From Gammaproteobacteria bacterium (GTDB lineage Bacteria; Pseudomonadota; Gammaproteobacteria; QZLD01), in assembly GCA_004796385.1 (NCBI GenBank), contig QZLD01000188.1:1-35051 (forward strand): DNA of 35,051 nucleotides. The letters run 5' to 3'. Position numbers and translations under genes: made by a program. Below are positions 16,155-34,164 of the stretch, one piece after another. Every line of letters starts with the position of its first letter. Position 1 is the stretch's first letter. The notes under the pieces were generated by a model. The model was not told the origin of the DNA. It was given only the letters and a program-made list of their open reading frames with translations, and did no database searches.

Positions 16155-16175
16155 TAGATATTTGAGTAATAGAGA

Positions 16176-17371: not shown

Positions 17372-18532
17372 ATGATGCGTAGGATAGCAGTTTTTACAGG
17401 GGCAAGGGCGGAATACGGATTGCTTTACTGGCTAATGAAAGATCTTCAGGCAGATCCGGATCTGGAGTTGCAACTTCTTGTGTCAGGAATGCATCTTTCA
17501 CCTGAGTTTGGAAATACATACGAAAAAATTCTGGACGATGGTTTTGTAATCAATGAAAAAGTTGAGATGCTGTTATCTTCTGACACTCCGCAAGGTATAG
17601 CAAAAAGTCTGGGCATAGGGGTGATTGGTTTTACAGATGCCCTAACAAGATTAGCTCCAGATTTGATCGTTATTTTAGGTGATCGGTTTGAAGCACTGGC
17701 GGTAGCTCAAACTGCTATGCTTTTGCGCATACCAATTGCTCATATTCATGGGGGTGAAATTACTGAGGGTGCTTATGATGATTCCATAAGGCACGCTATC
17801 ACTAAGTTAAGTTATCTGCACTTCACTTCAACAGAAGATTATCGCAAGCGTGTAATACAGCTTGGTGAGCATCCGGAAAGAGTTGTTAATGTTGGTGCTA
17901 TTGGTCTTGATGCTTTAACCAAAAGCCCGGTAATGTCTTTGGAAGAACTTTCTGGCTCATTAGATATTGAGTTATCTCGGCCATACTTTTTGGTAACTTA
18001 TCATCCTGTGACGTTGGCTGATGAAGATCCGGAAGAGTCATTTCAGGTTCTGCTTGATAGTTTAGATAAGTATAAGGACCACCAGGTGATAATAACCTAT
18101 CCAAATGCTGATGACGGTGGGCGTAAGATTATACCTATGTTAGAAAGCTATGCGGCAAAAGACCCGCAAAGAGTGCTAGCTATACCTTCTCTTGGACAGA
18201 AGCGCTACTTGAGTGCAGTTAAGCATGCAGCAGCTGTGGTAGGAAATTCATCTAGTGGAATTATTGAAGTTCCTGCATTTGGTGTTCCGACAGTTAATAT
18301 AGGTGATAGGCAAAAGGGGCGCCTTGCTGCCAAAAGTGTGATTAACTGTAGATCCAGTCAAGATTCAATCACATCTGCAATTTCTGCAGCCATTTCTGGC
18401 TCATATAGGGAAAGTGGTGAAACAATTACTAATCCCTATGGGCAAGGTAGTGCCAGTGAGCAGATTGTAAATGCTCTAAAAAATGCAAAGCTGGATGTGC
18501 TTAAGTCTTTTTATGATTTAAACCCGGATTGA
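17372..18532 (+). CDS. legG: Hydrolysing NDP-sugar 2-epimerase, legionaminic pathway (LegG/NeuC family)
   Basis: This 386-residue GT-B-fold enzyme of the NeuC family inverts C2 and hydrolyses the nucleotide from the diacetamido sugar, releasing the manno-configured precursor for LegI. Motifs are 'GARAEYGLL' (10-18), 'GDRFE' (103-107), 'HIHGGE' (124-129), 'YHPVT' (H211) and 'GNSSSGIIE' (291-299), all conserved in hydrolysing 2-epimerases. The first is retained in its canonical acidic form, unlike the second NeuC-like protein in this window (27577). Adjacent ATGs at 17372 and 17375 follow a GAGAG stretch. It lies 29 bases after legC and 19 before legI. Confidence 0.9.
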   Translation: MMRRIAVFTGARAEYGLLYWLMKDLQADPDLELQLLVSGMHLSPEFGNTYEKILDDGFVINEKVEMLLSSDTPQGIAKSLGIGVIGFTDALTRLAPDLIVILGDRFEALAVAQTAMLLRIPIAHIHGGEITEGAYDDSIRHAITKLSYLHFTSTEDYRKRVIQLGEHPERVVNVGAIGLDALTKSPVMSLEELSGSLDIELSRPYFLVTYHPVTLADEDPEESFQVLLDSLDKYKDHQVIITYPNADDGGRKIIPMLESYAAKDPQRVLAIPSLGQKRYLSAVKHAAAVVGNSSSGIIEVPAFGVPTVNIGDRQKGRLAAKSVINCRSSQDSITSAISAAISGSYRESGETITNPYGQGSASEQIVNALKNAKLDVLKSFYDLNPD

Positions 18533-18551
18533 TTGTATTTGGAGTTTATGG

Positions 18552-19625
18552 ATGACTGTAATTATTGCTGAGGTTGGGGTAAATCATAATGGTAGCGAGA
18601 AACTTGCTTTTGAATTGGTTGATGCGGCTTATGATGCAGGGGCTGATGTAGTTAAGTTCCAAACATTTAAAACTGAAAATATGGTTACCGTTAGTGCGCA
18701 GCAAGCTGAATATCAAATAGAAAATACTGGGCAAAAAGAATCTCAGTTGGCTATGTTAAAGCGGCTTGAGTTAAGTAAAGATACCTATCATAAGTTGACG
18801 GATTATTGTTCTAAGATAGGGATTGAGTTTCTATCCACCCCTTTTGATTCTGAAAGCCTCGATTTTCTAGTAAATCAGCTTGGTATAAAGACTCTAAAAT
18901 TACCCTCTGGAGAGATCACTAACTTTCCGCTAGCTCTTGAATATGCTCGAACTGGCTGTAATATGATTGTTTCAACTGGTATGTCGACATTGGCTGAGGT
19001 TGAGGGAGTTTTGGGGGTGATTGCGTTTGGATACACTGCCGATAGCAATCAAAAACCAGGGGTTAAAGCCTTTCAAAATGCATTGATGTCCGAAAAAGGA
19101 AGGGAGGCTTTGCAGAACAAGGTGACTTTGCTTCACTGTACTACTGAGTACCCAGCACCTGTAAATGAAATTAATCTTTTAGCTATGGATACTCTTAAAA
19201 GAGAGTTTCATCTTCCTGTTGGATATTCCGATCATAGCTCTGGTATTGTTATACCAATTGCTGCAGTTGCCCGTGGCGCTGCGGTAATCGAAAAACACCT
19301 TACTTTGGACAGAAATATGGAGGGGCCAGACCATAAGGCCTCCATTGAGCCTAATGAACTAAAAGATATGGTTAAGGCGATACGAGATATTGAAGTGGCT
19401 CTGGGAAACGGGGTGAAAGAGCCATCTGAGTCTGAAATCAAGAATAAGGGTGTTGCCCGAAAAAGCCTTGTGGCTAAGCAACAGATAAAAGCCGGGGATA
19501 GGTTTGATACAGAAAACCTTGGAGTTAAAAGGCCAGGTAATGGAATAAGTCCTGCAAAGTATTGGAGTGTGCTTGGGGGGACTGCTAAAAGAAATTATGA
19601 GAAAGACGAGGTTATAATTGACTAG
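18552..19625 (+). CDS. legI: Legionaminic acid synthase (LegI, NeuB family)
   Basis: This TIM-barrel synthase condenses phosphoenolpyruvate with the six-carbon ManNAc-like sugar to form a nine-carbon acid. 'IIAEVGVNHNGS' (4-15) holds the catalytic Glu7. 'KFQTFKTENMV' (35-45), 'LSTPFDSESL' (93-102), 'KLPSGEITNFP', 'SDHSSGI' and 'EKHLTLDR...GPDHKAS' follow in family order. A C-terminal SAF (antifreeze-like) domain ends with 'KRPGNGISP'. The overall pattern is that of E. coli-type NeuB and LegI proteins. Length 357 is typical. A GGAG site seven bases before ATG 18552 fixes the start. Assignment to legionaminate and not Neu5Ac comes from the adjoining legB/legC. Confidence 0.88.
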   Translation: MTVIIAEVGVNHNGSEKLAFELVDAAYDAGADVVKFQTFKTENMVTVSAQQAEYQIENTGQKESQLAMLKRLELSKDTYHKLTDYCSKIGIEFLSTPFDSESLDFLVNQLGIKTLKLPSGEITNFPLALEYARTGCNMIVSTGMSTLAEVEGVLGVIAFGYTADSNQKPGVKAFQNALMSEKGREALQNKVTLLHCTTEYPAPVNEINLLAMDTLKREFHLPVGYSDHSSGIVIPIAAVARGAAVIEKHLTLDRNMEGPDHKASIEPNELKDMVKAIRDIEVALGNGVKEPSESEIKNKGVARKSLVAKQQIKAGDRFDTENLGVKRPGNGISPAKYWSVLGGTAKRNYEKDEVIID

Positions 19626-20265
19626 ACCTTTAATAATAATTGGTGCTGGAGGTCATGCCAGTGTTTTGGTAGATGTTTTACGGTTACAGCAACAGGAACT
19701 ATTGGCTATTGTCAGCCTGGATCGCATGCCTAAGCGTTTAGTGCTGGATGAAATAACTCAGTATTCAAATGATGATGATATTCTTGAGCATGATAAGAGC
19801 GAAGTTTTGCTTGTAAATGGTATTGGGTCAATGCCGGAGGGAAAAGCAAGATACGAAATTTTTAAAAAGTTTTGTTCTCTAGGTTATAAATTTGAAACCA
19901 TAGTTGCCCCCAGTGCGATTGTATCTCCATTTGCAAAGTTAGGGAGTGGTGTTCAAATTATGGCTGGAGCCATTGTTCAAGCCGGTGCCGTTATTGGTGA
20001 TAATACAATAATTAATACAGGGGCAATTATTGATCACGATTGTGTTATTGGGGCGAATAACCATATAGCTCCTGGAGTAACACTAAGTGGGCAGGTTAAA
20101 ACTGGCAATCATGTTCATATTGGCACAGGGGCATGTGTGATTAACTTGGTTAGCATTGGTGAATCTGCGGTTGTTGGTGTTGGTGCTATCATTAGTCAGG
20201 ATCTGCCTGCAGGGGAAACAGCCTATGGATATAGGGGCAAAAGTCAAAATGAATGGAGTAACTAA
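19618..20265 (+). CDS. neuD: NeuD/PglD-type sugar O/N-acetyltransferase (LegH role)
   Basis: This is a 215-residue left-handed beta-helix acetyltransferase. The N-terminal Rossmann-like domain has 'IIGAGGHASVLVD' (7-19), and the hexapeptide repeats run from about 95 to 190. The catalytic histidine sits in 'IIDHDCVIG' (H140), as in PglD. In this context it most likely N-acetylates the C4 amino group made by LegC; acetylation of the finished NulO is the alternative. The start is TTG 19618, overlapping the legI stop by 8 bases, with a GACGAGG site six bases upstream. It ends in a TAATG overlap with ptmE. Confidence 0.85.
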   Translation: MTRPLIIIGAGGHASVLVDVLRLQQQELLAIVSLDRMPKRLVLDEITQYSNDDDILEHDKSEVLLVNGIGSMPEGKARYEIFKKFCSLGYKFETIVAPSAIVSPFAKLGSGVQIMAGAIVQAGAVIGDNTIINTGAIIDHDCVIGANNHIAPGVTLSGQVKTGNHVHIGTGACVINLVSIGESAVVGVGAIISQDLPAGETAYGYRGKSQNEWSN

Positions 20266-21326
20266 TGGCTTATAGTTGGAAAAATGTATTAATCAGCCCA
20301 CAAGACACTATTCGCCAGACACTTATATTGATAGATAGTGAATCACTGCGCGTTGCTTTAGTAGTTGATGAACAGCAGAAGCTGTTAGGTGTTGTTACTG
20401 ATGGGGATATTCGTAGAGGACTGCTCAATGACCTGTCCCTTGATTCAAATATTGAGCTGGTAATGAATAGATCTCCAATTATTGCTTCTGATTCGTTATC
20501 CAGATCAGCTGTGATGAAGCTAATGGAAGACAATAAGATTCTTTCTGTTCCGTTAGTTGATGATGACGGAATAGTTGTTGGTCTTGAGACCTTTCATGGT
20601 GCGTTATCCGGACCGCGCTTTGAGAATCCTGTTTTTTTAATGGCAGGTGGATTTGGTACTCGTTTACAGCCACTTACTGATAATTGCCCAAAACCTATGC
20701 TAAAAGTTGGGGGTAAACCCATACTGGAAACTATTATCGATAGTTTTATAGAGGCAGGTTTCGTTAATTTTTATATCTCGACGCACTATATGCCCGAGCA
20801 AATTGTTTCCTATTTTGGTGATGGAAGCAGTAAGAAAATCAATATTGCATATGTCCATGAAGAGACTCCACTTGGCACCGGTGGAGCACTAGGGTTGTTG
20901 CCTGATGATTTGCCAGACTGTCCACTGATTATGATGAATGGAGATGTGTTAACCAGGGTGGATTTTGAAAGATTGCTGGATTTTCATGACTCCAATAGTG
21001 CTGATGTTACCATGTGTGTGCGGGAGTACGACTACCAAATCCCATATGGCGTAATAAGTGGTGATGGAAATAAAATAGTAAGTATGGAAGAAAAGCCAAC
21101 CCAAAGATTTTTTGTTAATGCAGGTGTGTATGTAATTAATCAAAAAGTGGTTAAAAGCGTTCCAAAAGATCATGTTGTTGATATGCCATCATTGGTTGAA
21201 CAAGAGATTGCGGATGGTGGTGAAGCTTTGATGTTTCCAATCTATGAGTATTGGCTGGATATAGGTCGCATGGATGACCTGAATAGGGCGCAGGCAGATT
21301 TTAATGCCTTGGGAATTGGGAAATGA
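20265..21326 (+). CDS. ptmE: PtmE-like glucosamine-1-phosphate nucleotidyltransferase with CBS pair
   Basis: This 353-residue protein fuses an N-terminal CBS-domain pair (about 8-60 and 65-115) to a nucleotidyltransferase domain. 'LMAGGFGTRLQPLT' (125-138) and 'CPKPMLKVGGKP' (141-152) bind nucleotide and phosphate, 'NGDVL' holds the metal Asp, and 'EEKP' follows. This domain order is that of C. jejuni PtmE, which forms GDP-glucosamine for the legionaminate route. Its presence here suggests GDP-linked intermediates for LegB, LegC and LegG. The CBS pair may sense adenine nucleotides. A GGAG site six bases upstream and a TAATG overlap set the start. Confidence 0.85.
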   Translation: MAYSWKNVLISPQDTIRQTLILIDSESLRVALVVDEQQKLLGVVTDGDIRRGLLNDLSLDSNIELVMNRSPIIASDSLSRSAVMKLMEDNKILSVPLVDDDGIVVGLETFHGALSGPRFENPVFLMAGGFGTRLQPLTDNCPKPMLKVGGKPILETIIDSFIEAGFVNFYISTHYMPEQIVSYFGDGSSKKINIAYVHEETPLGTGGALGLLPDDLPDCPLIMMNGDVLTRVDFERLLDFHDSNSADVTMCVREYDYQIPYGVISGDGNKIVSMEEKPTQRFFVNAGVYVINQKVVKSVPKDHVVDMPSLVEQEIADGGEALMFPIYEYWLDIGRMDDLNRAQADFNALGIGK

Positions 21327-22306
21327 GTAAAATAGTTGGGGTCATTGGGCTCGGCAGTATTTCATTGCGCCATCGCAAGAACTTAAAAGAGTTATTCCCC
21401 AGTTATAAGGTGATAGCCGTCTCAGCCAGAGGTGGAATACCAAATGAGGATGTTGAAGATGCGGATCTTATAGTATCTGGTGTTCAGGAACTATTAGATC
21501 TTAAACCATACATGGTTATTATAGCTTCACCAGCAACTCTACATGCTGAACATGCAATCGCAATGATTAAGGCAGGTGTTCCTGTATTGATAGAGAAACC
21601 GTTGACGGCGAGTGCAAGTGATTCGCAGGCAATTGTTAATGCATCGGTAAAATTTAATACTCCTGCAGTGGCAGGATACTGCTTAAGGTATATGCCATCT
21701 TCTCAAAAAGTAAAAGAAATTTTGGGGCAGGAGGTGATAGGGAATATTTATAATGCAAGTGTAAATATTGGTCAGTTTCTTCCACAGTGGCGCCCCGATA
21801 AGAACTATCTGCACTCAGTTTCTGCACAGCCATCTTTGGGCGGGGGTGTATTGCTAGAATTAAGCCATGAGTTTGATTATGTCCAGTGGTTGCTGGGTGA
21901 TATGACATGTGAATATGCTCAATTACGCAACTCTTCGGAGCTTGATTTAGAGGTAGAAGAGCTGGCAGATGTTGTTCTTAGCTCAAAGCTAGGAGTAGTC
22001 TGTAGTATTCATCTTGATTTTCTCCAAAAGCAGCCGCAACGAGTCTGCAGTTTAATAGGCTCAAAAGGAAGGATTGAGTGGGATTTATTGGGCAATTCAA
22101 TTACGTTATATACAAAGGACGCAGTTGAGGTTTTATATTCTGAGCCTAAATGGGATAAGAACAAAATGTATCTTAATATGTTGCGTGATTTTGATTCTAT
22201 GATTAAAGGTGAAAGGCATCAATGCATTGATCTTATCCAGGCATCAAAAACTATAGTCTTGATAGAACAAATCAAACAAAGTGCTGTTTGGGGAGCTAAA
22301 CAATGA
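21323..22306 (+). CDS. ptmF: Gfo/Idh/MocA-type oxidoreductase (PtmF-like)
   Basis: This is a 327-residue NAD(P)-dependent oxidoreductase. The Rossmann motif is 'GVIGLGSISLRH' (6-17), and the family signature 'LIEKPLTAS' supplies the active-site lysine of the EKP motif. A second domain begins near 'YCLRYMPSSQ' and ends with 'LLELSHEFDYVQW', which includes the usual histidine. In the C. jejuni flagellin-glycosylation locus a gene in this position between ptmE and the CMP-legionaminate synthetase is called ptmF and is linked to glucosamine-phosphate supply, but its chemistry is not evident from this sequence. It overlaps ptmE and legF by ATGA-type junctions. Confidence 0.75.
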   Translation: MSKIVGVIGLGSISLRHRKNLKELFPSYKVIAVSARGGIPNEDVEDADLIVSGVQELLDLKPYMVIIASPATLHAEHAIAMIKAGVPVLIEKPLTASASDSQAIVNASVKFNTPAVAGYCLRYMPSSQKVKEILGQEVIGNIYNASVNIGQFLPQWRPDKNYLHSVSAQPSLGGGVLLELSHEFDYVQWLLGDMTCEYAQLRNSSELDLEVEELADVVLSSKLGVVCSIHLDFLQKQPQRVCSLIGSKGRIEWDLLGNSITLYTKDAVEVLYSEPKWDKNKMYLNMLRDFDSMIKGERHQCIDLIQASKTIVLIEQIKQSAVWGAKQ

Positions 22307-23004
22307 TTTCACATGGGTTTGTTTTTGCACGTGGCGGGTCAAAAGGGCTGCCAGGTAAAAATATAAAACCATTGGCCGGTAAGCCGTTAATAGCGTACTC
22401 AATAGAAACTGCAAAACAGGTATCTGGTTTAGATAAGGTTTTTGTTTCCACTGATGATAAAGATATTGCGTCAATTGCGCTTGAATATGGTGCAGTTGTA
22501 ATTGAGCGTCCTGAAGAACTATCAGGTGATAATAGCCCGGAATGGTTAGCGTGGAGTCACGCGATAGATTGGGTAATTAGAAATTATGGGGTATTTAAAG
22601 GATTTGTTAGTTTGCCTGCAACAAGTCCTTTGCGTAGTGTCATCGATGTTGAGCTAGCAATGGATAGATTGGTAAAGATGAAAGGAGATATTTGTATTTC
22701 TGTTACCCCTGCAAATCGCAGCCCCTTCTTTAATATGGTTAAAAAGAACAGTGCAGGGTTTGTTGAGCTTGTAAACAAGCCGAATGTAGGTGTTTATCGT
22801 CGCCAGGATGCCCCCATAGTGTTTGATATTTCTACGGTAGTTTATGCTACAACCTGTGAGTTTATAAAAAATAATTCAGGTATTTTTGATGGTAATGTTG
22901 TCTGCATAGAAGTTCCAAAAGAGCGTGCGGTCGATATAGATGATATTTATGATTTCAAATTGGCAGAGGCAATTCTAACTGAGAATGGAACATCGCATGC
23001 TTGA
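22303..23004 (+). CDS. legF: CMP-legionaminate synthetase (LegF, NeuA family)
   Basis: This cytidylyltransferase activates the NulO with CTP. The 233-residue protein starts with the CTP-binding signature 'FARGGSKGLPGKNIKPL' (7-23), followed by 'VFVSTDDKDIAS' and 'SLPATSPLRS'. The metal-binding end motif is 'ERAVDIDDIYDF'. It is a single-domain NeuA without the C-terminal esterase. ATG 22303 overlaps the previous stop (ATGA). It completes the route begun by legB, and its specificity for legionaminate is inferred from the neighbours. Confidence 0.87.
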   Translation: MISHGFVFARGGSKGLPGKNIKPLAGKPLIAYSIETAKQVSGLDKVFVSTDDKDIASIALEYGAVVIERPEELSGDNSPEWLAWSHAIDWVIRNYGVFKGFVSLPATSPLRSVIDVELAMDRLVKMKGDICISVTPANRSPFFNMVKKNSAGFVELVNKPNVGVYRRQDAPIVFDISTVVYATTCEFIKNNSGIFDGNVVCIEVPKERAVDIDDIYDFKLAEAILTENGTSHA

Positions 23005-23758
23005 AAATAAAAAAATAGCGGTATTAGGTGCTGGAGGGTTATTAGGGAAATCCATAGTGACTTCTGCTCTGCAAGAAGGTGCACAAGTAGTTGCTGCTGA
23101 TATTGATATTGATGCTATGAGACAAAAATTGGCTGATAGCGGTGTTGATATAAGTTGCGGTGCATTGTCTATGTGTAGTCTTGATGTTACTGAGGAAAAA
23201 GATGTTAAGAAATTCTTTTATGAGCAAGAGGGGTTAACCGGAGTAGTCAATAGTACATACCCCCGAAACAAGACATATGGTGCTCATTTTTTTGATGTTT
23301 CTCTCGATAGTTTTAATGAGAACTTATCTTTGCACCTAGGCTCAACGTTTCTATTAAATCAGCAGAGCGCAACTTATTTTCAGGAAAACCAGAGTGAATT
23401 TTCTTTGGTTAATATTTCATCGATCTATGGGGCTATAGCACCAAAGTTTGATGTTTATGACGGAACCGCAATGACCGTGCCGGTCGAATATGCAGCCATT
23501 AAATCAGCAATTATTCACTTGAATAAGTATGTTGCAGCTTATGTTAATGACAGCCGTTTTCGTGTTAATAGCATTAGTCCTGGTGGGATACTTGATAGTC
23601 AGCCGCAAGACTTTCTTAAGGCATATAAGAAACATACCTTGGGAAAAGGGATGTTGCAGGAGGACGATGTTGTTGGCTCTGTTCTGTTCCTTCTTTCAGA
23701 CCATTCTAGGTTTGTTAACGGGCAAAATATTGTCGTTGATGATGGTTTTTCACTTTGA
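22997..23758 (+). CDS. ptmA: Short-chain dehydrogenase (PtmA-like)
   Basis: This is a 253-residue classical SDR. The NAD site is 'VLGAGGLLGKS' near the N-terminus. 'NISSIYG' holds the catalytic Ser, and 'EYAAIKSA' gives the YxxxK pair. 'NSISPGGI' and 'GQNIVVDDG' follow as usual. I use ATG 22997, which yields 'MLENKKIAVLGAGG'; the track's ATG 22985 adds four residues, and both overlap legF. In Campylobacter ptmA sits directly after the CMP-legionaminate synthetase, as here. Its role in NulO supply or modification is not settled by the sequence. Confidence 0.78.
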   Translation: MLENKKIAVLGAGGLLGKSIVTSALQEGAQVVAADIDIDAMRQKLADSGVDISCGALSMCSLDVTEEKDVKKFFYEQEGLTGVVNSTYPRNKTYGAHFFDVSLDSFNENLSLHLGSTFLLNQQSATYFQENQSEFSLVNISSIYGAIAPKFDVYDGTAMTVPVEYAAIKSAIIHLNKYVAAYVNDSRFRVNSISPGGILDSQPQDFLKAYKKHTLGKGMLQEDDVVGSVLFLLSDHSRFVNGQNIVVDDGFSL

Positions 23759-23785: not shown

Positions 23786-25141
23786 TTGCCAGCCTTAAAA
23801 AAAGTGGTTTTTTCTGCTCCACATAAGCCAGCACTGTCCGAAATGATAGCTATTGCCAAATACTTACCTGAACATATTGCACCTATTTTTTTATTGCCTT
23901 TTTACGATAAAGAGTTGGACGAAAAAATGAACGCTGAGGGGTGGAGGGTTTGTTATTTTTGTCCAATTCCTAAAAATGGGGGCGATCGGCAAATCCACAA
24001 AAAAGCAGGATTTGTAAAAGGTTTGTTAGATAATGGCTGGTTTGGGTGCTTTGCTCAGGCATACCTACTTAAAGGTGTTTTTAAAAATAAACTCCTTCTA
24101 AGGTTAAATAAAATATATGATCGAATTGGCTCTGAACTTTGTAACGAAGAAGAAATTATCAAGGTAGTTATCTCAAATGACAGAAGTGCTGGGCTTGAGG
24201 CTGCATTAAATAAGTGGGCAATGGAACAAGGCATTGGGGTAATTATCCCTCCGATAGCATATGCATCAGACTTTTCTGCAGCAATAAAATTAAGAAAAGC
24301 ACGCATTTATGGTTTTGTACGGTCAGATATTCCAAAGGTAACTATGGAATTCTCGCATGGCGCGGTTATTAAGTCATTTTACCGCCCTTTTGAAACTGAA
24401 GCCTTAAAAGAGTTTGGGGTTCTTTCCTCTAACCCTTGGGTACTAGGATCCGGTCATTGTGATTTTATGTTAGTTGAAAGCGAAAGGGAGAAAAGAAGGT
24501 TAATTGCACTAGGGGGAGATAAGGAGAAGATGGTTGTTACCGGGCATCTTTCGCATGATTCCATCTGGAATGCCTTGAGCAATAAAGACGCAATAAAAAA
24601 ATCAATTATTGCTAAGTATAAACTGTCTGAAGACAAACCTTTTGTGCTTTTAGCGGCTCCTCAATATTGGGAGCATGGTTTGTGTGATAAGAAAAGTCAT
24701 TTCGATATTATTGAGCAGCTGTGCCAATCTTTGGGAGCTGAAAATAATCTAATAATATCTCTGCACCCCAAGATGGATCGAGCTGATTACAGTTATCTAG
24801 AGGATAAATATAGAGTAAAAATTGTACATGAATCTCTTAGGGATGTAATTGTTATTTCTGACTTATTTGTGGCAACATATTCATCGACTATCGCATGGGC
24901 TTTGTTGTGTAATAAAAAGGTTATGATCGTAGATTTTATTGGACTGTCATATAGCTCTTTCTATGAAGAGTTTGAAATTGACAGAATATGTAATACAGAG
25001 CAGCTAAAGGTCGCAATGCAATTTTTTGATAAGGAAGATATAAATAGATCTAATAAGGATAAGGAAGATCTTTGTGGTTTGCTATCACCATTTGATGGGG
25101 CGTGTGCTTCAAGAATTATTGATAACATCGTGGCGGAATGA
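23786..25141 (+). CDS. Unassigned GT-B-like protein; candidate NulO transferase
   Basis: This is a 451-residue soluble protein with a GT-B look. The N-terminal half carries Rossmann-like 'KKVVFSAPHK' and 'KVVISNDRSAG'. The C-terminal half has 'FVLLAAPQYWEHG', 'LIISLHPKMDRA' (about 325-336) and 'VATYSSTIAWALL'. This HP...SSx order is shared by CDP-glycerol phosphotransferase-, Kdo-transferase- and capsule sialyltransferase-like proteins that use CMP/CDP-activated donors. I cannot place it in a known sialyltransferase family. The start is TTG 23786 with a strong AGGAG seven bases upstream. Sitting directly after the legionaminate module, it is the best local candidate to transfer CMP-legionaminate. 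Confidence 0.65.
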   Translation: MPALKKVVFSAPHKPALSEMIAIAKYLPEHIAPIFLLPFYDKELDEKMNAEGWRVCYFCPIPKNGGDRQIHKKAGFVKGLLDNGWFGCFAQAYLLKGVFKNKLLLRLNKIYDRIGSELCNEEEIIKVVISNDRSAGLEAALNKWAMEQGIGVIIPPIAYASDFSAAIKLRKARIYGFVRSDIPKVTMEFSHGAVIKSFYRPFETEALKEFGVLSSNPWVLGSGHCDFMLVESEREKRRLIALGGDKEKMVVTGHLSHDSIWNALSNKDAIKKSIIAKYKLSEDKPFVLLAAPQYWEHGLCDKKSHFDIIEQLCQSLGAENNLIISLHPKMDRADYSYLEDKYRVKIVHESLRDVIVISDLFVATYSSTIAWALLCNKKVMIVDFIGLSYSSFYEEFEIDRICNTEQLKVAMQFFDKEDINRSNKDKEDLCGLLSPFDGACASRIIDNIVAE

Positions 25142-26577
25142 TGTTAGTTAAGAACTTATCAAGCTTTCTTGTTGTTGGCTTTTTGCCTTATGCCGTCAAC
25201 TTCTTTTTACTGCCACTATATGCCAAATATTTAGAGAGTGATGATTTCGGTATTATTGGAATGATCACTATGTACATTGCGCTTTTTGGAGCATGGGCTG
25301 CTTTTCAAATTCCCTCTTCGGTTGGAAGGTTGTATTTTGAATATGAAGGGGATGAAAAAAAATCATTGTTCACCACAATTTTTCTAGGGGTGATCGCTTC
25401 ATCGATCATTTTTGTCGCAATATATATCGCTAATGCTGAGTTGCTGTCTTCAATGATGTTTAATGCGGATGGCGATTTTAGCAAATACATAATTCTTGGT
25501 AGCATATCTATTTTTCTAACTGGAATAAACCAGCTATGTGAAAGATGGATGGTTGTTCAGCAGCGAGGACCTTTATTATTGTTAAGAAGTTTGTGGGCAC
25601 AAGTCATAAATGTATCGGCAGGAATAATCTTGGTTATATATTTCAAGATGGGGGTTGCAGGTTTTCTTCTTGCGATGATAGCTTCACAATTAGTTGTATC
25701 AATTGCCTCTGTTTGGGTGCTAAGGGAATTGTTAACGCGCAATGTGTCTTTTGCTTTGTTTAAAGAGTCTTTTTTATTTTCATACCCCCTGGTTTTTCAT
25801 GCCCTAGGTGGAATCGTGTTTATGTACTCAAGTGTCTTTATAGTTGAGAAATTTTTGCCCCTGAGTGTTTTGGGGGTGTTTGTTATTGCAGAAAAGTATT
25901 CGCAGGTAATTAAGGTTATTGTTAACCAAGTAAACAAAGTGGTTATGCCATTTTTTACGAAAGTGGCAAAGCAATCAGAGATTGGGGCTTTATCAAAGAT
26001 GCAAATAATTATCTCGGTTTGGATGCTGATTATTTTGATGACTGTATTTGCATATACCGCAATGTGTTATTTCTTTATCCCAAAGTTCATGGGGCAGGAA
26101 TACTCACAGGCTCCTGTATTGGTTGCAATTCTTGTTATTGGGTACATATTTAGAGGGTTTTATTGCTTTTCAAGCGCGACTTTGTTTTATCGTAAATTAA
26201 CTAATAAAATACCCAAAATTACAGTTGCGGCAGGGGTGTTTTCGATAATATCTAATGTGCTGATGATTCCTGTGTTTGGAGTTTATGGGGCAGCACTTTC
26301 AACCGTACTATCTTTCTTTATAACGTATCTGTTGGCGGATTATCTTGCACCAAAGGACTTTAAAATAGTGTATGACTGGATGGAGATGGGAAAAATTACA
26401 CTACTTCTATCTGGCGTTTATATTGTAATTTTTTGGGGAGCTACCTATTTGCCGCCAGTTGCTGCTATGATATCTGTTGCTATTACTAGCCTACTTATAT
26501 TTTATTGTATTTGGAGTTTTGGCATGTTTGATTTTAAGGAAAAGGTTGAAGTGTTGAGGAATGAATATGCCAAATGA
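25138..26577 (+). CDS. wzx: Wzx-like polysaccharide flippase (second copy)
   Basis: This 479-residue polytopic membrane protein has about 12-14 hydrophobic segments and belongs to the oligosaccharide flippase group. 'VVGFLPYAVNFFLLPLYAKY' is the usual first-helix pattern, and 'DFGIIGMITMYI' follows at the typical spacing. It is longer than the first copy (420) and shows little similarity to it by eye. ATG 25138 overlaps the previous stop (ATGA). Its 3' end overlaps the second NulO synthase gene. Lying between the two NulO modules, it is the likelier exporter for the NulO-containing unit. That is inference from position. Confidence 0.82.
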   Translation: MMLVKNLSSFLVVGFLPYAVNFFLLPLYAKYLESDDFGIIGMITMYIALFGAWAAFQIPSSVGRLYFEYEGDEKKSLFTTIFLGVIASSIIFVAIYIANAELLSSMMFNADGDFSKYIILGSISIFLTGINQLCERWMVVQQRGPLLLLRSLWAQVINVSAGIILVIYFKMGVAGFLLAMIASQLVVSIASVWVLRELLTRNVSFALFKESFLFSYPLVFHALGGIVFMYSSVFIVEKFLPLSVLGVFVIAEKYSQVIKVIVNQVNKVVMPFFTKVAKQSEIGALSKMQIIISVWMLIILMTVFAYTAMCYFFIPKFMGQEYSQAPVLVAILVIGYIFRGFYCFSSATLFYRKLTNKIPKITVAAGVFSIISNVLMIPVFGVYGAALSTVLSFFITYLLADYLAPKDFKIVYDWMEMGKITLLLSGVYIVIFWGATYLPPVAAMISVAITSLLIFYCIWSFGMFDFKEKVEVLRNEYAK

Positions 26578-27577
26578 TCATGTGTATATAATTGCGGAAG
26601 TTGGGCAGGCTCATGATGGTAGTTTGGGTATTTTGCATTCATATATTGATGCGATAGCTCAAACAGGGGTCGATGCAATAAAATTCCAAACCCATATTGC
26701 TGAGGCAGAAAGCAGTGAGTATGAACCTTTCAGGGTTAACTTTTCCTATGAAGATAAAACCAGATTTGATTACTGGAAAAGAGTGTCTTTTGATAGAGGG
26801 CAGTGGCTCGAAATAAAGCAGCACTGTAATCAGGTTGGACTGGACTTTATTAGCTCCCCATTTTCTATTGCGGCCGTTGAGTTGTTAGAGGGGATTGGGA
26901 TTGATAAATATAAAATTGGTTCTGGTGAAGTTAGTAATATGTTGATGTTGGAATTAATTGCTGAGACCAAAAAACCAGTTATATTATCAAGTGGCATGAG
27001 CTCTTATGCAGAACTTGATGCTGCAGTTGATCTTTTTAATCTTGATGATGGACTGCTGACGTTATTACAATGTACAACAAAGTATCCATCTGGCCCTGAA
27101 GATGTTGGCCTTAATGTGATTCAGGAGATGCGACAAAGATACGGCATCCCGGTTGGATTGTCGGATCATTCAGGGACAATCTACCCCAGTCTTGCGGCAG
27201 CAGCCCAAGGGGCCAATGCCCTTGAAGCGCATGTTGTTTTTGATAAAAGGATGTTTGGGCCAGATAGCGCATCGTCACTAACCGTTGATGAATTTAAAAT
27301 GTTGTCGGATGGAGTTAGATCAATTGAGAAGATGCATTCCTCTCCAGTTGATAAAAACGATAATCAGCAGTTTGCCGGGTTAAAGAAAATATTTGAAAAG
27401 TCGCTGGCTATAAACTGTGATTTAGATGCAGGTGAAGAAGTTAAACGTTATCATTTAGAGGCAAAAAAGCCTGCTGAAAAAGGGATACCTGCTTCAGAGT
27501 TTTCAAAGGTATTAGGTAAAAGGCTTATAGCATCTAAGAAGCAGTGGGATTTTATTAATTGGAGTGATTTTGAATAA
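26567..27577 (+). CDS. neuB: Second NulO synthase (divergent NeuB family)
   Basis: This is a 336-residue PEP-dependent nine-carbon acid synthase with a NeuB barrel and C-terminal SAF domain ('KKPAEKGIPASEF'). It differs clearly from LegI in the window. The catalytic segment reads 'IIAEVGQAHDGS' instead of 'NHNG', 'FQTHIAEAE' and 'YKIGSGE' recall the meningococcal NeuB type, and the product-site block is 'EAHVVFDKRMFGPDS' instead of 'EKH...GPDH'. The catalytic Glu and His are kept. GAGGA lies exactly six bases before ATG 26567, so I prefer it to the track's 26561. The gene overlaps the flippase 3' end. The product could be Neu5Ac or a different NulO. Confidence 0.82.
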   Translation: MPNDHVYIIAEVGQAHDGSLGILHSYIDAIAQTGVDAIKFQTHIAEAESSEYEPFRVNFSYEDKTRFDYWKRVSFDRGQWLEIKQHCNQVGLDFISSPFSIAAVELLEGIGIDKYKIGSGEVSNMLMLELIAETKKPVILSSGMSSYAELDAAVDLFNLDDGLLTLLQCTTKYPSGPEDVGLNVIQEMRQRYGIPVGLSDHSGTIYPSLAAAAQGANALEAHVVFDKRMFGPDSASSLTVDEFKMLSDGVRSIEKMHSSPVDKNDNQQFAGLKKIFEKSLAINCDLDAGEEVKRYHLEAKKPAEKGIPASEFSKVLGKRLIASKKQWDFINWSDFE

Positions 27578-28725
27578 TGATTAAGGTTTGTGTTGTTGTT
27601 GCTAGCCGTGCAAATTATGGGCGTATCAAATATGTTATGAAAGCGCTCGATGAGTCTGATGAAATAGAACTTCAGTTGGTTGTTGGTGCATCAACGCTTC
27701 TTGATAGATTCGGAAAAGCAATAAATGTAATCAAAGAAGATGGATTTGAGCCAAATAAGGCAATTTATTATACAGTTGAAGGGGAAACACTCCTTACTCA
27801 GGCAAAGTCTACGGGTTTGGGAGTTATTGAATTAGCGACAGCATTTGATGAGCTAAAGCCTGATTATGTTGTGTCTGTTGCTGATAGGTTTGAAACTATG
27901 TCTACAGCAATTGCTGCAACATATTTAAATATCCCACTAATTCATTTGCAGGGTGGTGAGGTTAGTGGAAATATTGATGATAGGGTTCGTCATGCAATAA
28001 CTAAATTGGCAGACTTTCACTTTGTTGCAACTGAGCAAAGTAAGGAGCGTGTGATTAAGATGGGGGAGAATGAGAACTCTGTCTTTAACTTTGGTTGTCC
28101 TGCGATGGATGTGATAGCAAATGCAGATCTAAGTATTGATAACGATATTATGAGTAGATATGGTGGGGTAGGCGTTAGCATAGACTGGACAAAGCCGTAT
28201 ATATTAATGATTGAGCATCCCGTTACAACGAGTTACGGTGATGGGTTTATGCAAGTAAATGAGTTGCTGCAGGCTCTGCTTGAATTTAAAGATTACCAAA
28301 AGGTTGTGCTGTGGCCTAACGCAGATGCTGGCGGTGAGGATGTTTCTAAGGGGATAAGGGTTTTCCGGGAAAATAATATGTCGGAAAATTTCCATTTTTA
28401 TAAAAATTTCTCCCCTGAAGACTACATACGAGTATTGGCAAATGCATCGTGTGCTGTTGGAAACTCTTCATCATTTTTGCGGGAAGGGTCATTTTTAGGT
28501 ATGCCTGCTGTTGTTGTTGGTGATAGACAGAACAATAGGGAGCATGGTGAAAATGTCGCTTTTGCAAATTATGAAAGGACAGATATTATTTCCAAGCTTC
28601 AAGGCCAGCTAGGGCATGGAAAGCATGAACCAAGTGATCTATTTGGTAAGGGTAATGCCGGACAATTAATAGCTGAGATTATCCCTTCATTAAAGCCAAC
28701 TGTTTTGAAACCCATTACCTATTGA
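27577..28725 (+). CDS. neuC: Second hydrolysing NDP-sugar 2-epimerase (divergent NeuC family)
   Basis: This 382-residue GT-B-fold hydrolysing 2-epimerase would release a ManNAc-type sugar from its nucleotide for the adjacent synthase. Family motifs are present in altered form: 'ASRANYGRIK' where LegG has 'GARAEYGLL', 'ADRFET' for GDRFE, 'HLQGGE', 'EHPVTTSYGD' and 'GNSSSFLREGS' where LegG has 'GNSSSGIIE'. These shared differences suggest a distinct subgroup that may take a modified substrate. The start ATG overlaps the synthase stop (TAATG). No dehydratase or aminotransferase accompanies it, so the simplest substrate is UDP-GlcNAc. Confidence 0.82.
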   Translation: MIKVCVVVASRANYGRIKYVMKALDESDEIELQLVVGASTLLDRFGKAINVIKEDGFEPNKAIYYTVEGETLLTQAKSTGLGVIELATAFDELKPDYVVSVADRFETMSTAIAATYLNIPLIHLQGGEVSGNIDDRVRHAITKLADFHFVATEQSKERVIKMGENENSVFNFGCPAMDVIANADLSIDNDIMSRYGGVGVSIDWTKPYILMIEHPVTTSYGDGFMQVNELLQALLEFKDYQKVVLWPNADAGGEDVSKGIRVFRENNMSENFHFYKNFSPEDYIRVLANASCAVGNSSSFLREGSFLGMPAVVVGDRQNNREHGENVAFANYERTDIISKLQGQLGHGKHEPSDLFGKGNAGQLIAEIIPSLKPTVLKPITY

Positions 28726-28739
28726 TCGAGGGCTTTTAC

Positions 28740-29441
28740 TTGAAAGCTAAAGCGCAAACTAAAGTTGCGGCCATTGTTCCTGCTAGGTCTGGATCAAAAG
28801 GATTTCCAGGCAAGAATATAGCCGAAATAAATGGCAAAACTCTGATTGAGTATGCCATTGAGAGCGGGGTGAGTTCGACAGCAGTTGATAAGGTATTTAT
28901 CTCAACGGACTCAAAACAGTATGAAGATATTGCCCAAAGAGCTGGTGCAGCTAGCTTAGGTTTAAGGCCAGAAGATCTTGCAAGTGATAGTGCTAAAACA
29001 GTAGATGTTATTCTTGAGATGCTAACGCATGATCAGATGTCTGATTTCACTCATGTAGTTCTTTTGCAGCCGACATCCCCAATTCGTCCCAAAGGTTTAA
29101 TTGATGAGGCAGTTTCACTTAGCCTGTCCTTTTCTGAATCAGTTGTTACGGTTGCAAAAGTCGAAGATCCTCACCCATATAAAATGAAGAGGATTGTTGA
29201 TGGTGTTCTGGAGCCATTTTTGCCTGATGGCATATCAGAGATTCCACGGCAGAAGCTCCCTATAGCTTATGAATTAACAGGAGCTATTTATGTTACACCT
29301 GTTTTATCTTTAGCTGAAAAGAGGTCTTTTTTTTCTGAGAATACTATTCCTTTGGTTTGCGAGGATTTTGTTAATATTGATTCAGAGAAAGACTTTCTGT
29401 TTTTGGAGTTTCTGGTTAAAAACGGGAAGGTTGAAGTTTAG
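28740..29441 (+). CDS. neuA: Second CMP-NulO synthetase (NeuA family)
   Basis: This is a 233-residue single-domain cytidylyltransferase with the CTP signature 'VPARSGSKGFPGKNIAEI', then 'VFISTDSKQYEDIA', 'LLQPTSPIRP' and the metal-site end 'VNIDSEKDFLFLE'. I choose TTG 28740 because GAGGG lies seven bases upstream. The track's TTG 28722 overlaps the previous stop and has no such site. It completes the second NulO trio. Sequence differences from legF through the whole length argue for a separate substrate and against recent duplication. A run of eight T at 29327-29334 is in frame. Confidence 0.83.
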   Translation: MKAKAQTKVAAIVPARSGSKGFPGKNIAEINGKTLIEYAIESGVSSTAVDKVFISTDSKQYEDIAQRAGAASLGLRPEDLASDSAKTVDVILEMLTHDQMSDFTHVVLLQPTSPIRPKGLIDEAVSLSLSFSESVVTVAKVEDPHPYKMKRIVDGVLEPFLPDGISEIPRQKLPIAYELTGAIYVTPVLSLAEKRSFFSENTIPLVCEDFVNIDSEKDFLFLEFLVKNGKVEV

Positions 29442-30653
29442 ATGAAAGTTGATTTTTTATTCTTGGTTGAGCATGAAGATCGAGAGCTATCGGTAGTAAA
29501 AGAAATATGCAAACTTTTGCGAAACAAAGGGTTTAGTTCAGTTGTCCTATCTGCAGAGTTTCATTGTCACCTATTCAGGTGTTATAAACCGCAGTGCGTT
29601 GTATTCCCGTATGCGACTGACTCAGATAATTGGCTCGTTAAATTTTTTTCCGCAAAAAAAGACTCCCCAGCATTTGTAACATTAAATTGGGAACAGCTTC
29701 TTAGCAATGCTAATAAGGCATTTAAAAGGCCAAGGGGTGAATTGATTCAAAAGCATTTTTATCACTTGGCATGGAGTGATGATTTTAAAAGTTTCTTGGT
29801 TGAGTCTGGTGTTGCAAAAGAAAATGTTGAAGTGCTTGGTAATCCTGCTGTTGAGCTACTCTATAGAGCTTGTCAGAACAATGAATATTGGAATGGCAAA
29901 TTAAGAGATAGCTATTATATTGCTAAAGATAAAAAGATAGTCTTTTTACCTATGAACTATGGGTGGGCTTTTTTTAGTGATGGTAAAATAAAAGCTAAAA
30001 TAGAAATGGGGTATGATAAAAATGTTGCCTGGGAGTATCGAGATTATTCTCAAAAGTGTCTTAAGGCCTTTGTTGGTTTTATACATGAAGTTTCAAAGAA
30101 TACCTCTTTGCACTTGGTGATAAGGCCCCACCCATCTATATCGATTGAGCAGTATTTTGAAATATTTGATAATCAAGGGCATGATATCAGGAAGGTAAAT
30201 AATATTACTCTAACCAAAGAATATACAATAAAAGAGTGGATAGCAGCTTCTGATGTAGTCGGTAGTTCCTGGAGCACTTCAGTTTGGGATGCAGTCTGCA
30301 TTGGCAAAAATGGTTTTCTTTATACCCCGTATGACCGTCCAAAGTGGTTGGAAACGAGTTGGAATAATAAAGTTCCAAATATCGATAAAGCAGAAGACGT
30401 TGAGCAAGTTATGAGCGCTTCCTTGGAGCCAGAAGTTGCTCCTGATACCATAATTGGGTTTATATCTGAATGGCTGGTAGACATATCTTTAAAAGGTGTA
30501 CATGCGGAATTAAAGTCTAAGAATGAAGCAAGGCTGATCGGATATTTGGTGAGGAGCAGGTTAAGGGATATATCGATGAAGTATCTTGGTGGGTATAAGA
30601 TACAAAAGGGGCTTCAAAGAGATTACTTTGAGCCAATTGAATATTTAAGTTAG
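29442..30653 (+). CDS. Unassigned GT-B-like surface-carbohydrate protein; candidate second NulO transferase
   Basis: This is a 403-residue soluble protein resembling the loosely defined 'surface carbohydrate biosynthesis protein' group. Landmarks are 'LVIRPHPSI' (225-233) and 'ASDVVGSSWSTSVWDAV' (269-285), again the HP...SSx order of GT-B enzymes with CMP/CDP donors. A Trp-rich mid region ('NYGWAFF', 'NVAWEYRDY') follows a 'VLGNPAVELL' hinge. The GGGAAGG upstream and direct abutment to neuA set the start. Its place straight after the second NulO trio mirrors the 23786 gene after the first, so transfer of the second CMP-NulO is the working guess. Donor and fold class are unproven. Confidence 0.62.
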   Translation: MKVDFLFLVEHEDRELSVVKEICKLLRNKGFSSVVLSAEFHCHLFRCYKPQCVVFPYATDSDNWLVKFFSAKKDSPAFVTLNWEQLLSNANKAFKRPRGELIQKHFYHLAWSDDFKSFLVESGVAKENVEVLGNPAVELLYRACQNNEYWNGKLRDSYYIAKDKKIVFLPMNYGWAFFSDGKIKAKIEMGYDKNVAWEYRDYSQKCLKAFVGFIHEVSKNTSLHLVIRPHPSISIEQYFEIFDNQGHDIRKVNNITLTKEYTIKEWIAASDVVGSSWSTSVWDAVCIGKNGFLYTPYDRPKWLETSWNNKVPNIDKAEDVEQVMSASLEPEVAPDTIIGFISEWLVDISLKGVHAELKSKNEARLIGYLVRSRLRDISMKYLGGYKIQKGLQRDYFEPIEYLS

Positions 30654-31567: not shown

Positions 31568-32128
31568 ATGAAAAGAATATTTGATTTAATCTTAGGCATA
31601 ATTATTGCAGGTATACTGTTTCTGCCTATGGTGCTTATTGCTTTTGCTGTCAAAGTTACATCAAAAGGCCCAGTTTTATATTGGTCTGACAGAGTAGGCT
31701 TGGATAATGTGATTTTCAAGATGCCAAAGTTTCGAAGCATGGTTATTGGAACCCCCGCAGTGGCAACGCACCTATTGGATCGTCCAGAGAGTGCGCTAAC
31801 CCCAATTGGGGGGTTCATTAGGAAGACCAGTCTTGATGAGCTTCCTCAGCTCTGGTGTGTTATTCGAGGTCAGATGAGTTTTGTGGGGCCACGGCCAGCG
31901 CTGTATAATCAAGAAGATTTAATATCTTTAAGGACCAAGAAAGGTGTGCATAGGTTTCTTCCAGGAATAACTGGTTGGGCCCAAGTGAATGGAAGAGATG
32001 AGCTGCCAATAGAAATAAAGGTTGATTATGATGCAGAATATGCCCTGAATTATGGCTTTTTGTTAGATATGAAAATATTATGGACCACTTTCATAAAGGT
32101 TCTTAAGCATGATGGTGTTTCTCATTAG
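31568..32128 (+). CDS. PglC-type initiating sugar-phosphate transferase
   Basis: This 186-residue monotopic phosphoglycosyltransferase (bacterial sugar transferase family) transfers a sugar-1-phosphate to undecaprenyl phosphate. One re-entrant or membrane helix lies at about 6-29, followed by 'KFRSM' (54-58), the catalytic Asp-Glu in 'TSLDELPQLW' (87-96), 'GPRPAL' and the usual 'PGITGWAQVNGRDEL'. It is the small form without the WcaJ N-terminal membrane domain. The adjacent WbpM-type dehydratase suggests a UDP-diNAcBac, UDP-QuiNAc or UDP-FucNAc type donor. Together with wecA it gives the locus two chain initiators. Confidence 0.9.
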   Translation: MKRIFDLILGIIIAGILFLPMVLIAFAVKVTSKGPVLYWSDRVGLDNVIFKMPKFRSMVIGTPAVATHLLDRPESALTPIGGFIRKTSLDELPQLWCVIRGQMSFVGPRPALYNQEDLISLRTKKGVHRFLPGITGWAQVNGRDELPIEIKVDYDAEYALNYGFLLDMKILWTTFIKVLKHDGVSH

Positions 32129-32181
32129 ATTTGGTGTGTGAGGTTTAATTTGTGCTTAACAGTATTAAGGGGTAAAACAAA

Positions 32182-34164
32182 GTGAGGTTAAAAGTGCCTT
32201 TCACAAATTGGCTGTTAAGCTTGCCGCGCACATATAAAAGTTTGTTGTTTCTTGTGCATGATATTGTGTTGCTGCCTTCTGCTCTTTTTGTCGCATGCTT
32301 TCTTACGACCGGTGGTTTAGCTTTATCTCAAACCATCCCATGGCATATTTATTATTCCTTTCCTTTTGTGGCTAGCCTATTCTTTCTAAAGTTTGGTTTG
32401 TATAGAGCAGTTGTTCGTTATATAGGGTATAAGGCAATTGTTTCAATTGGCTCTGCTGTAACAATTGCGATAATTTGGCTATATGCAAGTACCATATTAT
32501 TCCACAATAACTTTATTCCAAAGCGTGTATTTGTGATTTCTTGGCTTCTTTCGATAGTTTTTGTTGGTGGAAGTAGGCTTCTGGCATGCCAGCTGATTGA
32601 GATGACAGAAGGATCATCAAAAACTAAAGGTGGCAAGGAGTCTATAAAACGCATAGCAATATTCGGTGCTGATTCAACAGGTGTTCGTCTTTGCCGGTAT
32701 ATTAGAAAGCTAAAAGATTATCGTCAGGTCGCTTTTTTTGATGAGGATAAAAAGCTTGTTGGCTGCTCAATTGACGGCATTCAGGTAATGTATCCAACAA
32801 ATCTGTCCGAAATTTGTGGCAGGCTAAAGTTAGATGAAGTATTCCTGGCTATGCCAAATATCGAAAAGCAAAAAAGGAAAAAGATACTTGAGCAATTGCT
32901 TGAGTGTGGGATTAGGGTCAAAACTGTTCCAGGCTTTGCCGGGATTATTTCTGGAGAAGCTAGAGTTGAAGAATTAAGAGAGATATCTGTAGATGATATA
33001 TTGGGAAGGGATACAGTTCTTCCTAGAAAAGAGTTGCTAAGCGGGTGCATACAAGCCAAGACAGTATTGGTTACTGGCGCAGGAGGGTCTATCGGCTCAG
33101 AACTATGTCGACAAATAGTCATGTTAGGACCCCAAAAGCTGATCCTATTTGAAATTTCTGAATTCGCTCTATATAAGATTGAATCCGAGCTCAGGTCAAT
33201 GGTGGAAAAAGAATATTCTATTGATATTGAGATAATTGCACTGCTTGGCTCAGTGCAGCAAAAAAAACGACTTGCTCAGGTTATGAAAGCATATAGGGTG
33301 CAGACGGTCTATCATGCCGCCGCCTACAAGCATGTTCCAATAGTTGAGCATAATCCGATCGAGGGAGTTAGAAATAATATTTTTGGGACTCTTAATGCAG
33401 TGGCTGCTGCTGATGAGGCAGAGGCAGAGACGTTTATTTTAGTTTCTACTGATAAGGCGGTGAGACCCCAAAATATTATGGGGGCAACAAAAAGATTTGC
33501 AGAGTTGATTTTGCAGGGTATTTCTCAGACTGGAACTAAGACTAAGTATTGCATGGTAAGGTTTGGCAATGTCCTTAATTCATCTGGTTCGGTTGTTCCT
33601 TTATTTAGTAAGCAAATTGAAAACAAAGAGCCTGTTACTGTTACTCACCCAGAGGTAACTCGATACTTTATGACTATTCCAGAGGCTGCGCAGTTGGTCT
33701 TGCAGGCTGGGTATATTGCTAAGGGTGGTGATGTTTGTGTATTGGATATGGGGGGACCGATTAAGATTCTTGATCTGGCTCGCAAGATGATTGCTCTAAG
33801 TGGTTATAAAGAGAAAACGACTGGTTCAGATGGTGATATTGAAATCAAAATTGTTGGTTTAAGACCTGGTGAAAAATTATACGAGGAACTTCTGATTGGT
33901 GAGAATGTGTCAGGTACTGAACACCCGCTAATTATGAGGGCTGAGGAATCATATGTTTCATGGGATGAGCTCCATAAAGTAATTGATGATTTAGATGTGT
34001 GCTGCCATAATACGGATGTTAAGGGGGTAAGGGATGTTTTGCTTTCAGTGGTTTCTGGTTATGAGCCTCAATGTGATATTCAGGATAGGTTGTGGCTAGA
34101 AGCAAATTCAAAAGAGCAAAATAAGATTATCCCGTTTGAAGTATCTTCATCAAGGGAAGTTTAG
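32182..34164 (+). CDS. wbpM: WbpM/PglF-type UDP-HexNAc 4,6-dehydratase
   Basis: This is a 660-residue membrane-anchored dehydratase making UDP-4-keto-6-deoxy-GlcNAc. The N-terminal part has four membrane helices (about 20-140). A first Rossmann-like domain at about 155-250 ('IAIFGADSTGVRL') is followed by the catalytic SDR domain with 'GAGGSIGSE' (299-307), 'AAAYKHVPIVEHNP' and 'STDKAVRPQNIMGATKR' (422-438), where Met replaces the usual YxxxK Tyr (M433/K437). It ends with 'GLRPGEKLYEELL'. The start is GTG 32182 with AAGGGG nine bases upstream. It may serve both initiation sugars and other deoxy-HexNAc residues. Confidence 0.92.
   Translation: MRLKVPFTNWLLSLPRTYKSLLFLVHDIVLLPSALFVACFLTTGGLALSQTIPWHIYYSFPFVASLFFLKFGLYRAVVRYIGYKAIVSIGSAVTIAIIWLYASTILFHNNFIPKRVFVISWLLSIVFVGGSRLLACQLIEMTEGSSKTKGGKESIKRIAIFGADSTGVRLCRYIRKLKDYRQVAFFDEDKKLVGCSIDGIQVMYPTNLSEICGRLKLDEVFLAMPNIEKQKRKKILEQLLECGIRVKTVPGFAGIISGEARVEELREISVDDILGRDTVLPRKELLSGCIQAKTVLVTGAGGSIGSELCRQIVMLGPQKLILFEISEFALYKIESELRSMVEKEYSIDIEIIALLGSVQQKKRLAQVMKAYRVQTVYHAAAYKHVPIVEHNPIEGVRNNIFGTLNAVAAADEAEAETFILVSTDKAVRPQNIMGATKRFAELILQGISQTGTKTKYCMVRFGNVLNSSGSVVPLFSKQIENKEPVTVTHPEVTRYFMTIPEAAQLVLQAGYIAKGGDVCVLDMGGPIKILDLARKMIALSGYKEKTTGSDGDIEIKIVGLRPGEKLYEELLIGENVSGTEHPLIMRAEESYVSWDELHKVIDDLDVCCHNTDVKGVRDVLLSVVSGYEPQCDIQDRLWLEANSKEQNKIIPFEVSSSREV

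Follow-up and report, generated by a model that had tools for sequence, protein, structure and literature searches.

A probably self-contained nonulosonate gene trio with a distinct NeuB/NeuC subclass in a gammaproteobacterial surface-polysaccharide locus

Introduction

In the synthase NeuB (SiaC) of Neisseria meningitidis (Nm), Arg314 contacts the N-acetyl group of N-acetylmannosamine (ManNAc) (PMC6795526), and positions 70-85 have been assigned to specificity at C4-C6 of the sugar in work that also describes the NeuB of Moritella viscosa (Mv) as a Neu-pathway enzyme (PMC7371886). On the epimerase side, Glu134 of human GNE is the proposed contact of the 4-hydroxyl (PMC4793188). Here we analyze three contiguous genes, encoding a nonulosonate (NulO) synthase (SYN), a hydrolysing epimerase (EPI) and a CMP-NulO synthetase (CMPT), at positions 26561-29441 of a 35-kb stretch of DNA (contig QZLD01000188.1, 35,051 nucleotides; hereafter the window). 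The window is a surface-polysaccharide locus on one of the 339 contigs of a 2.77-Mb draft gammaproteobacterial genome. SYN and EPI are a distinct, apparently uncharacterised subclass of the NeuB and NeuC families, and not a new kind of system. The trio probably makes a NulO similar to N-acetylneuraminic acid (Neu5Ac) from UDP-N-acetylglucosamine (UDP-GlcNAc).

Results

The synthase forms a separate clade with an altered sugar pocket

SYN belongs to the NeuB superfamily (PF03102, 221.4 bits against a cut-off of 22.1), and with the equivalog model NeuB_NnaB (TIGR03569) it scores 284 bits, under the cut-off of 399.65. This shortfall was discarded as a signal, since Moritella NeuB misses the same cut-off with 381.7 bits. 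The match to PseI is also under the cut-off (209 against 340.25 bits), and SYN carries Gly, not Phe, at the site of Nm Gly133, so that neither feature places it in the pseudaminic acid (Pse) pathway. PseI (8h2c) shares the fold, the phosphoenolpyruvate (PEP) chemistry and Phe289 with SYN but has Phe at the Gly133 site, where SYN has Gly as do the Neu and legionaminate (Leg) enzymes.

A maximum-likelihood tree built from 65 synthases placed the SYN family in a clade of its own (support 100/96). The Neisseria/Moritella Neu5Ac synthases (a clade with support 100/100), the PseI group and the LegI group stood outside it, and the family attached near the Neisseria/Moritella group with only moderate support (93/87). 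Two further entries of the tree, E. coli NeuB and human NANS, lie on long branches, and their exact placements were not relied on. An earlier note on this DNA, made from the letters alone, had named close grouping with characterised Neu5Ac synthases as one result that would speak against an altered substrate; SYN groups apart from those in the tree. The AF2 model of SYN (pLDDT 91) matches full-length NmNeuB (1xuu) best, with TM 0.87 and 30% identity; the Foldseek comparisons confirm folds and do not tell substrates apart.

The catalytic, PEP-binding and metal-binding residues are kept (Glu25, Lys53, Gln55, Lys129, Ser132, Glu134, Tyr186, Ser213, His215, Glu234, His236 and Asp247), and SYN shares His57, Gly131 and the GPD motif with the Nm and Mv enzymes, which likewise belong to a gene trio without a dehydratase or aminotransferase. 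When 13 NmNeuB contacts were mapped on the alignment, eight, including those to PEP and metal, were conserved in the SYN family and in all other synthases. The sugar contacts do not follow the Nm/Mv type: SYN differs at Asn74 (Tyr), Asn184 (Thr), Phe288 (Ile) and Arg314 (Lys), and Arg314 is the only one of the 13 that is fixed to another residue throughout the family. In addition, the segment assigned to C4-C6 specificity is replaced. Five of the 23 family-fixed differences fall within the 16 Nm positions 70-85, an excess (Fisher p = 0.003) that is only indicative because the sequences are related; F61, R68, Y71 and W72 of SYN correspond to Nm positions 72, 79, 82 and 83.

The epimerase keeps its catalytic residues and changes its sugar contacts

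EPI scores 368.8 bits with NeuC_NnaA (TIGR03568), over the cut-off of 235.9, and is thus a member of that family. Its closest solved structure, by sequence and by fold, is human GNE (4zht), which the AF2 model (pLDDT 86) matches with TM 0.87 and 32% identity. Compared with the GNE epimerase domain and Moritella NeuC, the catalytic residues Asp112, Arg113, Asp143 and His220 are kept, as are His132, Ser302 and the proposed acetyl contacts Arg321 and Gln322, and EPI carries the GNE/Moritella-type residues Ile142, Pro184 and Arg306. Four positions are changed family-wide: Asp21 to Asn or Ser, His49 to Thr or Ala, Glu134 to Gln and Gly111 to Ala.

Inspection of these alignments puts the earlier note on firmer ground. 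All five motifs that it quoted are present, QAHDGS (residues 16-21) and FDKRMFGPDS (227-236) in SYN, and ASRANYGR (9-16), ADRFET (102-107) and GNSSSFLREG (295-304) in EPI, and conservation over dozens of genomes excludes chance and sequencing errors as the source of the observation. The departure from NHNG (Asn29 to Ala) is real and family-wide, being found in 84 of 87 members while Asn stands in 39 of 39 other synthases. The departure from GPDH to GPDS was rejected as a signal, because Asp247 is kept and the Nm and Mv Neu5Ac synthases carry GPDI. Of the EPI motif residues, Asn in place of Asp21 and Ala in place of Gly111 hold across the family, whereas Arg113, Glu115, Asn300, Ser301, Ser302, Arg306 and Glu307 are ordinary. 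Changes in both enzymes are indeed coordinated, lying family-wide at sugar-contacting positions with the catalytic residues kept. The observation is therefore real and better founded than the letters alone could reveal, though partly on other residues, the most telling in these alignments being SYN Arg314 to Lys, SYN residues 61-74, EPI His49 to Thr and EPI Glu134 to Gln. The synthase start given in the note, 26567, is an ATG, but only the second one of a reading frame that opens at 26561.

The trio is widespread and tightly linked

A scan of genome contigs with the single protein gave no match, and relatives were obtained with a profile of seven sequences (the window SYN with homologues from class-level genomes and a Rhizobium plasmid). 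Searches at family and order level were uninformative, the host's order comprising two genomes. The profile confirmed at least 488 SYN relatives in species-level genomes, and the best 80 of these (55-65% identity) come from at least six phyla, represented by Bacteroidota, Gamma- and Alphaproteobacteria, Campylobacterota, Thermodesulfobacteriota, Planctomycetota and Nitrospirota. Members are frequent in marine Bacteroidota, with scattered occurrences among Proteobacteria, Campylobacterota and other groups. Phage records yielded distant NeuBs only; one of these records, FPLJ01000048 (L095), is in fact a capsule contig of Moritella viscosa that carries neuA, neuB and neuC together, and it served as a Neu-pathway reference. 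The only annotated clade member seen is labelled 'N-acetylneuraminate synthase family protein', and no study of the clade was found in the open-licence literature.

Genes were called in 86 homologous loci. In 84 of them EPI accompanies SYN, and 75 have the two genes side by side (median distance -3 bases); a CMPT-like gene lies within six genes in 79; beyond the trio, no gene is universal among these loci. CMPT itself has N. meningitidis CMP-Neu5Ac synthetase (1eyr, 100 bits) as its best solved match.

Several loci show features of their own. Two EPI subtypes pair with the one synthase clade, SRANYGR (window-like, 63-76% identity) and TARPSYSR (41-51%), as seen when L015, L022, L027, L033, L038, L052, L054 and L092 are compared with Bacteroidota loci. 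In the Rhizobium sp. WL3 plasmid (L004:15282-16280), a gene for a KpsF/GutQ-type sugar-phosphate isomerase stands between synthase and epimerase. In Marinobacterium sedimentorum (L038:8023-12836), the trio lies 3′ of a lipid A acyltransferase gene and near a Kdo-transferase-like gene, which suggests decoration of lipooligosaccharide; no Pfam family matches the gene that immediately precedes the synthase (8883-9992).

The trio is probably independent of the legionaminate and WbpM pathways

As the earlier note had said, no dehydratase or aminotransferase gene lies within 26561-29441, while a Leg set stands upstream and a WbpM-like dehydratase gene (32182-34164) downstream. The Leg set comprises LegB, LegC, LegG, LegI, LegD, a PtmE-like protein, a Gfo/Idh oxidoreductase, LegF and a PtmA-like protein, with NCBIfam scores of 534.7 bits for LegC (cut-off 420), 492.6 for NeuC, 495.6 for NeuB and 205.7 for NeuD; it has an epimerase, a synthase and a cytidylyltransferase of its own. 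LegG and LegI resemble EPI and SYN in superfamily and in the succession of hydrolysing epimerase and synthase. The Leg type, however, has Leu24 in the epimerase and Phe57 and His248 in the synthase and needs LegB and LegC, whereas the trio family lacks these features and stands alone.

Among the 86 loci, no LegB-like protein above 200 bits was found, and a LegC-like aminotransferase above 250 bits was found in one, that of Marinomonas lutimaris, where the order is as in the window. Dedicated LegB and LegC thus do not go with this synthase as they would in a legionaminic acid pathway. In 19 of 32 trio-bearing genomes SYN is the only PF03102 protein, three further genomes have a very weak second match, and LegC reaches or exceeds its cut-off in three of the 32. 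Many Bacteroidota genomes hold DegT proteins scoring just below the LegC cut-off, and for this reason the argument for independence rests on two proteobacterial genomes. In Vibrio neptunius S2394, where SYN is the sole NeuB, there is no LegC match, and DegT-family and PF02719 matches reach at most 31.9 and 66.5 bits, respectively, the latter compared with about 390-425 for true WbpM-type dehydratases in the same search; neither a full-scoring DegT aminotransferase nor a WbpM/PseB/LegB-type dehydratase was detected, an absence that is strong, if not absolute, in a draft assembly. The M. sedimentorum draft contains a WbpM-type protein, and a full-scoring DegT protein was not found. The trio-only genomes that the earlier note had suggested looking for exist: V. 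neptunius S2394 and M. sedimentorum OS208 carry nothing but the trio.

Organization of the locus

The features discussed are collected in Table 1. The two glycosyltransferases, each located 3′ of one NulO set, belong to one family according to an iterative search, and we infer a separate transferase for each NulO. Remote relatives of the one at 29442-30653 occur in 24 loci, many of them 3-6 genes after SYN. This protein has matches below cut-off to TIGR04396 surf_polysacc (93.6 bits, cut-off 125) and to the BFO_1060 family glycosyltransferases (73.2, cut-off 200), and the one at 23786-25141 has a weak match, under the cut-off, to the alpha-2,8-polysialyltransferase family PF07388 (E = 0.004); other library matches of both are general (PF04464). 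The region 14964-30653 shares its order with the Marinomonas lutimaris locus (L015), namely Leg set, transferase, one Wzx, trio and second transferase, and this suggests that two different NulOs occur in a single glycan repeat.

Table 1. Genes and sites of the window
Feature	Position	Strand	Remarks
Complete GDP-type legionaminate set	14964..23758	+	2.8 kb upstream of trio
Related glycosyltransferase, likely legionaminate transferase	23786..25141	+	Directly 3′ of Leg set
Wzx-type flippase	25138..26577	+	PF01943/PF13440; shares 17 bases with SYN start
SYN: NulO synthase, NeuB family, 338 aa	26561..27577	+	TIM barrel and C-terminal SAF/AFP-like domain
SYN residues 59-75, replaced C4-C6 specificity segment (Nm 70-86)	26735..26785	+	
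SYN Lys303, equivalent of NmNeuB Arg314	27467..27469	+	Lys in 87/87 of family, Arg in 38/39 others
EPI: hydrolysing UDP-HexNAc 2-epimerase, NeuC family, 382 aa	27577..28725	+	SRANYGR subtype
EPI Asn13, equivalent of GNE Asp21	27613..27615	+	Acidic in 27/27 other epimerases, 0/85 of family
EPI Thr40, equivalent of GNE His49	27694..27696	+	His in 26/27 others, 0/85 of family
EPI Gln125, equivalent of GNE Glu134	27949..27951	+	Gln in 84/85 of family
CMPT: CMP-NulO synthetase, NeuA-like cytidylyltransferase, 239 aa	28722..29441	+	PF02348
Putative NulO-using glycosyltransferase	29442..30653	+	Begins one base past CMPT end, no gap
Small phosphoglycosyl transferase and WbpM-like 4,6-dehydratase	31568..34164	+	PF02397; PF02719, 406.8 bits

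Discussion

The apparent independence from the Leg and WbpM pathways implies that the input of the trio is a nucleotide sugar present in every such cell, UDP-GlcNAc being the obvious one, and the lack of any other universal gene in the loci likewise indicates a universal UDP-sugar. The residues kept in the two enzymes, catalytic, PEP and metal residues in SYN and catalytic and acetyl-contact residues in EPI, argue for a 2-acylamino hexose, and recognition of the C2 acyl-amino group is probably retained. The nearness of EPI to human GNE and the residues that SYN shares with the Nm and Mv synthases also speak for a Neu5Ac-like route. We therefore favor a route in which UDP-GlcNAc passes through a ManNAc-type sugar to a Neu5Ac-like NulO and on to CMP-NulO, and consider it probable. 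The trio would then be a self-contained CMP-NulO pathway that starts with a common UDP-N-acetylhexosamine, of which UDP-GlcNAc is the likeliest, with no need for a 4,6-dehydratase or an aminotransferase. EPI would remove UDP and invert C2 via a 2-acetamidoglucal-type intermediate to give an N-acyl-mannosamine, most likely ManNAc, and SYN would condense PEP with the aldehyde of this sugar in a metal-dependent reaction to a nine-carbon NulO that retains the 7- and 9-hydroxyls, that is, Neu5Ac or a close variant. CMPT would activate this product with CTP, and the BFO_1060-type transferase at 29442-30653 would add it, next to legionaminate, to the surface glycan exported by Wzx.

Four points weigh against this route. 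In the tree, SYN lies outside the group of Neu5Ac synthases of Nm/Mv type, and we know of no assayed enzyme of the SYN or EPI clade. The sugar contacts are changed family-wide (Arg314 to Lys and segment 70-85 in SYN; Asp21, His49 and Glu134 in EPI), so that the sugar may differ in its C4/C6 configuration or in its N-acyl group. Finally, a D-isomer 2-hydroxyacid dehydrogenase (cluster c6, phosphoglycerate-dehydrogenase-like) stands near the trio in 23 of the 86 loci (L027:12844-13806, L010:10527-11459, L033:12173-13138 and 20 further loci), and the route does not account for it; it is perhaps linked to a hydroxyacid N-acyl group on the NulO.

The pocket changes may alternatively mean that EPI and SYN use another universal or easily made UDP-N-acetylhexosamine to give a new NulO, for example UDP-N-acetylgalactosamine to give the C7 epimer of Neu5Ac, or that the sugar bears another N-acyl group, which we regard as the main rival reading, possible but rather unlikely. 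The changes are fixed across the clade in both enzymes, Arg314 is Lys in 87 of 87 members, the C4-C6 segment is replaced and the 4-OH contact of the epimerase differs. Yet R314K of NmNeuB is active while R314A is inactive, as reported in PMC6795526, and Gln, present at GNE position 134 in 43 of 500 homologues, is said to be able to fill the role of Glu (PMC4793188). A TviC-like C4-epimerase gene (cluster c18) lies at most three genes upstream in 10 of the 86 loci, which speaks for this reading, but it is not universal. Enzymes of other clades, such as E. coli NeuB, reach Neu5Ac using different pockets. Conserved pocket differences alone are no proof of a different substrate, and the apparent rebuilding of recognition around C4-C6 in both enzymes would fit either another way of holding the same sugar or another sugar. 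Only tentatively, SYN and EPI might form a fourth class of NulO biosynthesis beside Neu, Leg and Pse, converting a UDP-N-acylhexosamine to a NulO of undescribed configuration or N-acyl group.

The earlier note had also raised the possibility that the trio draws intermediates from the neighbouring Leg or WbpM pathway, which would be of the 6-deoxy or 4-amino type. The window does contain a full Leg set and WbpM, and Marinomonas lutimaris is arranged alike. This idea nevertheless appears improbable, given the near-absence of Leg genes from the homologous loci, the rarity of LegC and of any other NeuB in trio-bearing genomes, the lack of both enzyme types in V. neptunius and of a full-scoring DegT protein in Marinobacterium, and the Leg set's possession of its own epimerase, synthase and CMP-transferase.

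Use of a non-acetamido substrate, to give Kdn or another deaminated ulosonate, is very improbable. It would agree with the loss of the N-acetyl contact Arg314, but EPI keeps Asp112, Arg321 and Gln322, which are proposed to bind the acetamido group. The known capsule route of Serratia marcescens resembles the trio in having an ulosonate synthase and a CMP-transferase for a surface glycan; it differs in that only neuA and neuB are described, with no epimerase, the NeuB is fused to an isomerase domain, and the product is mainly Kdn (PMC9000132). A Kdn route of that type was rejected here. That the three enzymes are Leg paralogues that have degenerated or lost activity, as odd motifs beside a normal Leg set might suggest, is scarcely credible, since the frames are intact, the catalytic residues are kept, the clade is deep and separate, and SYN is the sole NeuB in many genomes.

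Prediction of NulOs from genomes rests almost wholly on the resemblance of NeuB to the Neu, Leg or Pse enzymes, and the SYN clade matches none of the tested reference groups. In the trio-only genomes, V. neptunius S2394 and M. sedimentorum OS208, the product is directly accessible to mass spectrometry. If it is Neu5Ac, the clade represents another way, at the sequence level, of making sialic acid, and if it is not, a new sugar is widespread.

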